A stretch of DNA of 16,003 bases. It comes from Candidatus Bathyarchaeota archaeon (GTDB lineage Archaea; Thermoproteota; Bathyarchaeia; 40CM-2-53-6). Shown here piece after piece: positions 1,409 to 7,300 of the stretch. Made by a program: the position numbers and the translations under genes. The notes under the pieces are model-generated. The model was not told the origin of the DNA and searched no databases. It saw nothing but the letters and a program-made list of their open reading frames with translations. Numbering within the stretch: position 1 is the first letter of the stretch; every line of letters begins with the position of its first letter. The DNA is taken from the NCBI GenBank assembly GCA_005884605.1, contig VBBE01000094.1, positions 1 to 16,003 on the forward strand. Direction: 5' to 3'.

Positions 1409-2451
1409 TTGTCACAACAGGCTCCCTGGAATAAGTCACAGAAACTGCTCGTCAAGATCGATGAGGAGGCAGACCCGGCTTTAGGTTGCCCGCCCGAGAA
1501 GAGGACGATTGATCAGCACATCAGGTTCGGTTTGATCAACTTGGATAAGCCTTCAGGTCCGTCAAGCCACGAAGTCGTCGCATGGGTCAAACGTCTCCTG
1601 CGGTTGCACCACGCTGGCCACGGTGGAACTCTAGAGGTCCGCTTCGGGGCCGGAGTAATCCAATGGTCACCGGTGTTCTTCCGCTAGCTCTCGAAGACGC
1701 TACAAAGACGATCCAAGTATTCCTCCTCACCGGGAAAGAGTACGTCTGCCTAATGACGATGCACGGCGACGTCGATGAGACCAGGCTCCGCGGTGTACTG
1801 GAGGAATTTGTCGGCGACATATTTCAGAAGCCTCCTGTGAGGGCCGCGGTCAAAAGGGAAGTCCGGAAAAGAACAATCTACTCGATCGATGATGTGGAAA
1901 TTGATGGACGACAAGTCCTCTTCCGTGTCGCTTGTCAAGCGGGAACCTACATCCGGAAACTTGTCTACGACGTCGGGGAAGTTCTCGAAGTAGGCGCGCA
2001 CATGCGAGAGCTCCGAAGAACAAGATCCGGATCTTTTACTGAAAAAGGCATCCACTCTCTCTACGATATCCTCAAACTCTCTCAAGCTTCCCCGAACGAG
2101 AGGGAAGAAATGGTCCGGCAGATCATTAGGCCGATGGAGGCCGCTTTCGACTATGTTCCGCGAATCTACATTCGCGACTCCGCGGTCAGTTCAATATGTC
2201 ACGGCGCTGACCTTGCTGTCCCAGGGATAGTCAAGCTAACCGAAGGAATACGCCCCAAGACCGCAATCGCACTTTTCACGCTCAAAGGAGAACTCGTCGC
2301 GTTATCAAGAGCGTTCATGGGAACAGAGCAGATGATGAAGGATGAACGCGGGCTCGCCGCGAAGACAGTTAGGGTGATCATGCCGACCGACACATATCCC
2401 AAGCTCTGGAAACCGAAGCATAGTCGTCCCGTGGTAAGCCAGTTCAATTGA
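1409..2451 (+). CDS. cbf5: Cbf5, H/ACA pseudouridine synthase (split by a BHB intron at 1635-1657)
   Basis: Cbf5 is the catalytic subunit of the archaeal H/ACA RNP (with Nop10, Gar1, L7Ae) that converts uridines to pseudouridine in rRNA and tRNA. Exon 1 (from TTG 1409) gives 75 residues ending GHGGTL after [13 protein letters not shown]. Without splicing the frame runs into a stop at 1685-1687. Removing 23 nt joins G1634 to A1658 and restores [20 protein letters not shown], so the catalytic Asp is residue 76, whose codon is itself interrupted. The spliced protein is 339 residues, the normal family length. The C-terminal third (about 215-325) is a PUA domain. It follows rpl14e and is followed immediately by a zinc-ribbon gene. 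The start is chosen from GGTGGAG at 1392-1398, 10 nt upstream. Confidence 0.92.
1635..1657 (+). other. 23-nt archaeal BHB intron in cbf5
   Basis: The intron can be drawn as a bulge-helix-bulge. An inner stem GGTCC (1636-1640) with GGGCC (1647-1651) closes the loop GCTTCG. A central 4-bp helix pairs CTCT (1629-1632 region, CTCT at 1629-1632) with GGAG (1652-1655 region). The 5' bulge AGA is cut AG^A and the 3' bulge TAA is cut TA^A, both the canonical position. An outer helix TGGA with TCCA brackets the site. The length is not a multiple of three, so retention truncates Cbf5. A one-base shift (1636-1658) gives the same spliced product. BHB introns in cbf5 are known from Crenarchaeota. Confidence 0.85.
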
Positions 2452-3660: not shown

Positions 3661-3783
3661 ATTTCCTACTTCTCGAACGATTAATGTCTCGCTGGGCTTC
3701 TTGCATCTGTCCAAAGGGGAAAAATAGTCCCATCGGTCAAAGGGCGAGACTGGGCCGGGATTCCTGAGCCTGGTACAGGGCAG

Positions 3784-3805
3784 TCCACTAGAAACGTGGG
3801 CCTAG
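3784..3805 (+). other. 22-nt noncanonical intron (29/30) in tRNA-Ser
   Basis: The fold is GGGC, bulge AGT, CCAC, loop TAGAAAC, GTGG, GCCT, bulge AGG. Cleavage at AG^T and AG^G, the standard position in three-base bulges, joins G3783 to G3806 and builds the anticodon stem CAGGC. An outer exon helix is not evident, so it is a relaxed BHB. The intron ends in TAG, so before splicing TAGGC can also pair with GCCTG. Confidence 0.8.
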
Positions 3806-3813
3806 GCCTGGAA

Positions 3814-3828
3814 AAATAGGCTCCTGTT
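3814..3828 (+). other. 15-nt canonical-site intron (37/38) in tRNA-Ser
   Basis: Removing these 15 bases leaves the 7-nt loop CTGGAAA. The anticodon GGA (3810-3812) pairs with TCC (3822-3824) inside the intron, C32 can pair with G3826, and the 3' bulge TTA is cut TT^A. There is almost no internal intron helix. A shift by one A (3815-3829) gives the same product. Confidence 0.7.
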
Positions 3829-3966
3829 AGCCTGTGGTCCTTGCGGGCCGCGTGGGTTCAAATCCCACTCCCGGCGCCAACCTAAGAATCAGCTGTGACG
3901 AGCATGTTTTCTTCGGCGTGTTTGTTGCATCTCTTTCGGCCCGAGTCTTCGCATTGCTCTCTTGTG

Positions 3967-5219: not shown

Positions 5220-5334
5220 TGGTGCGGGAGGTGGGATTCGAACCCACGAACCCCTACGGGACAGGCGCCTCAGGCCTGCGCTTCCAAGACCCTCGAATCA
5301 AAGGGTCTCTTTGACCTGGCTTGGCAACTCCCGC
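5220..5334 (-). tRNA. tRNA-Leu(GAG) with a D-arm intron, CCA encoded
   Basis: Read on the minus strand from 5334, removing 5282-5308 leaves an 85-nt class II tRNA plus CCA. The acceptor is GCGGGAG/CTCCCGC with discriminator A73, typical of leucine. The D arm becomes GCC-AAGCCAGGTCAAA-GGC. The anticodon arm is CAGGC-CTGAGGC-GCCTG, anticodon GAG, reading CUC/CUU. The variable arm is TCCCGTAGGGGTTC and the T arm GTGGG-TTCGAAT-CCCAC. The intron splits the 3' strand of the D stem (about position 23/24), which is uncommon. The gene lies between the unexplained region and the rpl15 operon, on the opposite strand. Confidence 0.92.
5282..5308 (-). other. 27-nt noncanonical D-arm intron in tRNA-Leu
   Basis: On the minus strand the inner stem GACCCT/AGGGTC closes the loop TTGATTCG. 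The central 4-bp helix pairs exon TCAA with intron TTGG. The 5' bulge AGA is cut AG^A and the 3' bulge AAG is cut AA^G. Both three-base bulges and the cut positions follow the canonical BHB rule, and the join restores the D stem. Confidence 0.85.
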
Positions 5335-5985: not shown

Positions 5986-7300
5986 TTCATAGAGCTATTC
6001 CAACCCCTGACCAGAATACTACCCGGAGTAAGATCAACTCGGAATCGGGCCCATAGTAACAGCCGGCCTAATACTCCAAGTGCTCTCCGGCTCGAAGATG
6101 ATCAACGTCGACTTCTCAAACCCAGCGGACCGCGCCCTGTTCACCGGCGCCAGTAAAGTACTATCCGTATTCATGACGATCTTCGAAGGAATAGCCTTCC
6201 TGATAGGAGGAGCATACAACGTCACAAACAGCGCCGGACAGCTAATCACGCCTAGCCTGCAATCTCAATTCCTAATCCTCGTCCAGCTCGTAGTCGCAGG
6301 AGTCGTCATCATCCTCCTCGATGAGATGCTGCAGAAGAAATGGGGATTCGGCAGCGGAATAAGCCTGTTCATCGCCGCCGGCGTCTGCCTCTCCATAGTA
6401 TGGAGCACAATCGGACCAATAGCACCAGTGTCAGATGGAAAATACCTCGGCGCGATCTTCGCCTTCGCCCAATCCATCGGACCAGTCCTGTCCAGCCCGG
6501 GAAGCTTCTCCGCATGGCAGAGCGCACTCTACCGAGGAGGAAGCGGGCTTCCAGACATGATCGGACTCTTCACAACACTAGGAGTATTCGTCCTCATAAT
6601 CTACCTCAACGGGCTACGCGTCGAAGTCCCAGTCTCATACGCACGATACCGAGGCTTCAGAGGACGCTTCCCCATAAAGTTCTTCTACGTATCCAACATA
6701 CCCGTCATCTTCGCCGCCGCCCTCTTCGGAAACATCTTCTTCATCGGACAACTACTCTTCCAAAGATACAACCCCACCTGTTCCAGCACCGGACTAAACT
6801 TCTGGCTAAGCCTATTCCCAGGCTGCTTCGTACCCACAAGCTCAACCAACCAACAACTCGTCCCCAGCAAAGGACTCGCCTACTACACTTTCGCCCCGAG
6901 ATCCATCACTGTCGTCCTTCAGGATCCGATTAGAGCCGCAGTCTACATGGGCATCTTCGTACTAGCCTGCGTCTTCTTCGCCGTCACATGGGTCGAGGTA
7001 GGCGGCATGGACTCCAAGACAGTCGCAAAGCAACTGATCGACTCCGGGATGCAAGTAGAAGGATTCAGACGCTCCGGCACCACCATAAGACAGATCCTCG
7101 ACCGCTACATCCCAACCGTCACCGTTATCGGAGGAATCGTTATCGGCACCATCGCGGCAGGCGCCGACTTCCTCGGTGCCTTCGGCACCGGAACAGGAAT
7201 ACTCCTGACGGTAGGCATCATCGAACAATACTACGAGATACTGGTCAAAGAGAGAATTACCGAAATATACCCTGGAGTCAAGGGATTCCTCGGACAGTGA
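5986..7300 (+). CDS. secY: SecY protein-conducting channel, with an N-terminal deletion and frame break
   Basis: SecY is the main subunit of the Sec61/SecYEG translocon in the cytoplasmic membrane. A first segment at 5986-6033 encodes FIELFQPLTRILPGVR, the SecY N-terminal amphipathic helix, but no ATG, GTG or TTG lies in that frame after the rpl15 stop. After a frame change, the rest runs from about 6032 (QLGIGPIVTAGLILQVLSGS) to 7300. A GTG at 6080 would give an intact 406-residue frame with the later membrane helices and cytoplasmic loops, including the region around VEVPVSYARYRGFRGRFPIKF. Compared with other archaeal SecY, about 60 residues are missing between the LPGV and QLGIGP segments: TM1 and the plug. 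The stop overlaps the adkA start (GTGA). Confidence 0.85.

Follow-up and report, generated by a model that had tools for sequence, protein, structure and literature searches.

BHB introns in archaeal messenger RNA

Crenarchaeal cbf5 pre-mRNA reportedly contains an intron that Watanabe is said to have described in 2002. Splicing and EndA-dependent cleavage of crenarchaeal cbf5 introns have been reported for several species, the published occurrence being restricted to the Desulfurococcales and Sulfolobales, with entries of 0 for Thermoproteales, Korarchaeum, Cenarchaeum and Nitrosopumilus; the intron has been dated to the common ancestor of these two crenarchaeal orders, and its loss within Crenarchaeota has been inferred (Yokobori 2009, PMC2738675). 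In a paper on Haloferax, the intron of crenarchaeal cbf5 mRNA is given as the one further BHB intron previously reported (PMC7714728). The preliminary description of the locus treated here, which held that bulge-helix-bulge (BHB) introns in protein genes are known mainly from crenarchaeal cbf5, agrees with both sources. Among the matches listed in a literature search covering titles and abstract openings, with subscription papers and preprints outside its scope, no report of a cbf5 intron outside Crenarchaeota was found.

The intron described here, from a bathyarchaeon, resembles the crenarchaeal cbf5 intron in its gene, its phase between letters 1 and 2 of the Asp codon, its length (23 nt, within the published 16-44 nt) and its BHB-like junction, predicted here to be cut between bulge residues 2 and 3; unlike the published crenarchaeal range, its occurrence extends to Bathyarchaeia, to further lineages of their phylum and to part of the Asgard archaea (PMC2738675). 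The kind of intron is already known, from crenarchaeal cbf5 at the identical codon phase, and the new part is its reach. Archaeal tRNA introns share this type of junction and presumably also the endonuclease, whereas the cbf5 substrate is an mRNA whose exon codons serve both pairing and coding. The BHB of Haloferax HVO_1309 likewise concerns an mRNA substrate of the splicing endonuclease, a role predicted for the cbf5 transcript, but lies in the 5' UTR rather than inside a codon (PMC7714728).

An insert within the catalytic Asp codon of cbf5

The window, by which the whole 16,003-nt stretch of DNA analysed is meant, carries cbf5 on its forward strand in a frame that, read unspliced from an assumed TTG start at 1409, reaches a stop after 92 codons. 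Exon 1 (1409..1634) encodes the DKCLD domain and the beginning of the TruB domain, its last base being G, the first base of the catalytic Asp codon. It is followed by the 23-nt insert AGGTCCGCTTCGGGGCCGGAGTA (1635..1657), and exon 2 (1658..2451) runs from bases 2-3 of the Asp codon through the stop, encoding the TruB and PUA domains. Deletion of 1635-1657 joins G1634 to AT1658-1659 and brings back GTLDP and a 339-aa Cbf5, so that the preliminary description was right about the coordinates of the insert, the stop after 92 codons, the split of the catalytic Asp codon and the length of the restored protein. Before splicing, the domains are matched apart, DKCLD in frame 1 and TruB with PUA in frame 2. 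The spliced protein scores 423.9 and 418.1 bits against two NCBIfam Cbf5 models (cutoffs 242 and 238.15) and matches solved Cbf5 structures with a best E of 5.9e-112, the GHGGTLDP block being gap-free in the alignment.

A scan of single deletions, with starts from 1600 to 1689 and 20 lengths of 2 to 59 nt per start, yielded an open frame with GTLDP in four cases (1635/23 nt, 1636/23 nt, 1636/2 nt and 1636/44 nt). The first two give one and the same mRNA, 1636-1658 being equivalent to 1635-1657, and the latter was chosen among the frame-restoring deletions because of the BHB cut rule. Self-splicing introns of groups I and II have a catalytic RNA core and are far longer than 23 nt; with an insert of just this length, and with two tRNAs as the only Rfam matches across the whole window, an intron of either group was ruled out.

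Predicted fold of the junction

The region 1605-1690 is predicted to fold as a bulge-helix-bulge with cuts at both ends of the insert. Its central 4-bp helix pairs the exon strand CUCU (1629..1632) with the intron strand GGAG (1652..1655) at pair probabilities of 0.93-0.95. Bulge 1 consists of A1633, G1634 and A1635 (1633..1635), with the predicted 5' cut after 1634, and bulge 2 of U1656, A1657 and A1658 (1656..1658), with the predicted 3' cut after 1657. Inside the intron, a 5-bp hairpin (1636..1651; 1636-1640 with 1647-1651) has a pair probability of 0.97, and outside it the exon strands UGGA (1624..1627) and UCCA (1659..1662) form the outer helix at 0.88-0.94, using bases that double as coding bases around Gly, Asp and Pro.

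The preliminary description had given this structure as two 3-nt bulges around a 4-bp centre. The cut sites stand, as does the strict form as the conserved one, but in this species an extra pair, A1628-U1656 (0.87), is predicted, which makes the centre 5 bp long and the second bulge 2 nt; this form, at -17.0 against -15.6 kcal/mol, is better by 1.4 kcal/mol. Because a pair of this type is possible in just 10 of 80 distinct bathyarchaeial windows, the strict arrangement of 4 bp and 3-nt bulges is taken as the conserved form. The fold energy of this single sequence lies within chance expectation (z -0.84 and -0.69), and the evidence above chance for the fold is its conservation and covariation in relatives, not single-sequence energy.

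Distribution in Bathyarchaeia

The nearest named relatives of the window, at up to 96% identity over the best segment, are Bathyarchaeota metagenome-assembled genomes (MAGs) of the BA_x series and two Crenarchaeota-titled MAGs (13_1_40CM). A contig scan for relatives confirmed 264 stretches, of which the 80 best were retained; eleven named loci among these (L001-L010 and L050) share the 23-nt insert at this very base, and the coding sequence of the window is 89-96% identical (best segment) to L001-L009 and L050, all of which have it. Further named Bathyarchaeota loci have an insert of 21, 22 or 30 nt, or none; fifteen named loci without a fit to the motif are not counted among L001-L080.

A search of 256 genomes of the class Bathyarchaeia found a Cbf5 match in 236. 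Of the 157 genomes resolved, 87 have 16-38 nt inserted at this codon phase and 70 have no insert; the 157 form a non-random sample taken mostly from the top of the score-ordered match list; 13 were added from the lower listed part (13/13 intron-bearing) and five were chosen solely for a short exon-1 frame (5/5 intron-bearing). The insert also affects annotation, cbf5 being mis-called in intron-bearing genomes. Close relatives of the window often appear in protein searches as Cbf5 proteins of 260-262 aa, and the aligned short proteins of its clade start at the Met after Asp-Pro and thus lack the catalytic residue, which is what gene prediction halted by the insert would produce.

Distribution in other TACK lineages, Asgard archaea and further groups

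Across the phylum of the genome with the nearest Cbf5 (G001), 377 of 398 genomes searched gave a match. In the class that includes a MAG titled Desulfurococcales (G257), 140 of 147 genomes were matched, and an insert of 19-67 nt was found in 25 of 31 resolved genomes, a sample made up of 29 resolved out of 30 score-kept loci together with G258 and G260, the last placed by title only. The class of G439 (44 searched, 42 matched) has the intron in 24 of 26 parsed genomes, one of the two others (G559) being misparsed. A leftover group has it in 24 of 30 parsed, a figure to be read with the biased choice of the phylum search, in which genomes beyond the classes already covered were fetched for a short exon-1 frame; five of the six intron-less members are score-kept genomes from that search, and one (G262) comes from outside it. 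The class of G423, which we infer to be Nitrososphaeria, shows no insert in 30 of 30 loci read, and its 59 matches among 61 genomes all have frames of 282-448 aa.

Among Asgard archaea, represented by the phylum of Candidatus Jordarchaeum (G263; Promethearchaeati in NCBI), which includes Baldrarchaeum (G261), 141 of 148 genomes were matched. An insert of 29-41 nt was found in 13 of 46 resolved genomes, about 20 of the loci in this sample having been picked mainly for short frames. Two Asgard bins, G776 and G745, have a second, intron-bearing cbf5 (L417 and L427) that branches among TACK sequences; these copies are probably foreign contigs, and they were left out of the covariation and ancestral-state analyses while remaining in the count of state changes given below. 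In the phylum of a Methanocellaceae MAG (G842), 116 of 120 genomes were matched, with frames of at least 287 aa in 114 of the 116 (the exceptions being G920 and G878), and in the phylum of G846 there were 18 matches among 23 genomes, 17 of them with frames of at least 332 aa and the other at a contig end.

Over all groups the shortest inserts measure 13 nt and the longest 67 nt. The 67-nt insert, in L231 (class of G257), exceeds the published range of 16-44 nt, and those of 13 nt, in L331, L442 and L451, lie below the published minimum of 16 nt and leave little room for an inner helix. Some loci stand outside these counts: L237 (at a contig end), L220 (a second copy of G229) and L389 were left unparsed, and L413, L435 and L437 were misparsed and excluded, so that G471 and G543 are uncounted, while G535 is counted through L318. 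G559, misread as intron-less, is entered as having none in the tree count and was dropped from the covariation and ancestral-state analyses. The comparison with crenarchaeal and other TACK cbf5 genes that the preliminary description had proposed thus gives an identical intron phase, which extends to Bathyarchaeia and some Asgard archaea. Judged from sequence, the reach of the predicted cbf5 intron across Bathyarchaeia, other TACK lineages and some Asgard archaea is wider than in the papers cited here.

Covariation and constraint on the exons

In the central helix, 645 of 656 positions hold standard pairs across 164 distinct junction windows, compared with a mean of 592 and a maximum of 602 when the intron strands are redealt and 364-431 in slid controls; the inner helix, counted to a maximum of 5 bp in each window, has 653 pairs against a shuffle maximum of 299. 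These shuffles ignore kinship among the sequences. Bathyarchaeia alone give 312 of 320 pairs in the central helix (shuffle maximum 294) and 330 in the inner helix (maximum 212), and Asgard archaea give 52 of 52 (maximum 49) and 59 (maximum 55). In Thermoproteia (98), the class of G439 (92) and the leftover group (91), the central helix equals the best shuffle and does not exceed it, because the strands hardly vary there, and the inner helix exceeds the best shuffle in all three (121 against 104, 55 against 41 and 88 against 76, respectively).

The exons are also marked. The border AG^A of bulge 1, with ^ at the cut, is present in 146 of 173 introns, and CTA serves as the Leu codon before Asp in 147 of the 173 genes with an intron but in 17 of the 147 without one, an excess expected if the Leu codon has to provide the first bulge. 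Intron lengths modulo 3 fall into classes of 83, 57 and 33 among the 173 introns, and their spread over all three classes speaks against both a fixed frameshift and an in-frame loop. Every one of the 32 distinct inserts with a length divisible by 3 contains an in-frame stop. Within the bathyarchaeial subset, a stop in the exon frame occurs in 25 of 25 such introns (for example L029, L128, L141 and L146) against 24 of the remaining 55 (Fisher p 1.7e-7), and shuffled middles reach a mean of 8.7 and a maximum of 16 of 25. Across 11 independent pairs on the tree (starred branches), the stop goes the same way in 2.4 on average and the opposite way in 0, with a median p of 0.5; because these pairs are not significant, selection for in-frame stops is a lead and not a result.

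Alternative explanations for the insert

That the 23 nt are an assembly or sequencing error, missing from the real genome, would fit a window that already contains a probable assembly fault (a gap of 172-177 nt in secY, described below), but the same 23-nt insert recurs in the eleven named loci of separately assembled genomes, and inserts of 16-38 nt with differing letters and compensatory changes are found class-wide; an error of this kind has next to no probability. A broken gene with an intact copy elsewhere can be nearly dismissed as well, since the coding sequence remains 89-96% identical to the ten loci with the same insert, and a second Cbf5 of G001 was not found among the matches listed, which extend to near E 2e-88.

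The 2-nt deletion at 1636, itself among the four deletions that reopen the frame with GTLDP, would allow the reading frame to be explained by a frameshift, or by a 2-nt error together with a short insertion; another alternative is translational bypass of the insert. Against these stand insert lengths of 13 to 67 nt in all classes modulo 3, the in-frame stop in every one of the distinct multiple-of-3 inserts, and insert letters that covary as RNA structure; a ribosomal hop between whole codons would, moreover, leave the split Asp codon unrestored. Frameshift and bypass are accordingly very improbable. The 23 nt are, with high confidence, a BHB intron of the cbf5 pre-mRNA. The sequence, the reading frame, the BHB geometry, the exact conservation of position, the covariation and the presence of endonuclease homologues in relatives are observed, and endonuclease cleavage, ligation and the dependence of Cbf5 on these steps are inferred.

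Putative splicing route and machinery

The exon-intron junctions of the cbf5 pre-mRNA would fold as a BHB and be cut after the second base of each bulge by the tRNA splicing endonuclease, probably a two-subunit (alpha-beta) enzyme, and the exons would then be joined by an RtcB-type ligase, bringing G and AT together as the catalytic Asp codon. If the intron were retained, the frame would end after codon 92, and Cbf5 would thus need the tRNA splicing machinery; the dependence on the tRNA splicing endonuclease that the preliminary description had suggested holds as a prediction. H/ACA-guided pseudouridylation, by way of Cbf5, would be likewise dependent, and, if this is true, the enzyme of tRNA splicing would also control rRNA pseudouridylation, in groups of which few members are cultured.

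Homologues of the endonuclease (PF01974) are present in 13 of 13 relatives tested, ten of which have two copies. Nine of the ten intron-bearing relatives (G001-G010) have two, and G001 has a single match, perhaps from incompleteness of the genome. Class-wide, PF01974 is matched in 249 of 256 Bathyarchaeia, with two matches in 184, one in 59 and three in six, and copy number shows no association with the intron in this class, two or three matches occurring in 70 of the 87 genomes with the intron and in 55 of the 70 without it. In G002, copy 1 matches the solved chain 3p1z_B (E 3.8e-42) and aligns Tyr, His and Lys, which we take to be the endonuclease active site, while copy 2 is divergent, with a weak match to 5x89_A (E 5.2e-16). 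The pair would fit the hetero-oligomeric type of endonuclease, a type that has been linked to relaxed BHB cutting (Yokobori 2009, PMC2738675).

Origin and age

An intron at the same base across these groups points either to a date far older than the ancestor of two crenarchaeal orders or to a site of repeated BHB gain. Independent origin of the bathyarchaeial, thermoproteial and Asgard introns at a hotspot, in place of one ancient intron, has an even chance of being correct. It would account for a patchy distribution with at least 25 changes of intron state on a FastTree phylogeny of 334 rows of spliced Cbf5, both second copies and the misparsed G559 being included in the count. After pruning of four rows (these three and the long branch G677), the common node receives a P(intron) of 0.28 under a reversible two-state model. 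The surrounding Gly and Asp-Pro codons could, in addition, provide the outer helix in any cbf5. Against a hotspot, the introns read share an identical phase as well as AG^A and N^A borders across groups, and loss of the kind that a single gain demands, with 27 losses on the pruned tree, has been inferred in Crenarchaeota (PMC2738675). The two-state model and Dollo counting disagree, and one ancient origin and a recurrent hotspot are taken to be about equally probable.

The Asgard intron bearers fall into four small clades with support of 100 each. Three of these branch next to Asgard sequences that have no intron, and the one that includes Jordarchaeum is placed elsewhere, with support 0. A more far-reaching reading, offered tentatively and somewhat doubtful as a whole, would place one very old intron in the cbf5 Asp codon as early as an ancestor shared by Asgard and TACK archaea, at a time close to or preceding the rise of eukaryotes, followed by many losses; the intron would perhaps have been kept to tie Cbf5 supply to tRNA splicing capacity, and retained introns would have been selected always to truncate the protein.

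Other features of the window

At 6036-6041 the secY gene of the window is without 172-177 nt found in four relatives (L003, L006, L007 and L008), these being the relatives whose alignment resumes beyond the gap. The secY open reading frame fits the SecY model only from position 92, with a shifted frame, and the gap is probably an assembly deletion. ARAGORN found no tRNA in the window, and Rfam finds two, both bearing long inserts: one on the forward strand at 3754-3876, with 50 nt where the model has 13, and one on the reverse strand at 5223-5334, with 35 nt where the model has 4, in the D-arm region.
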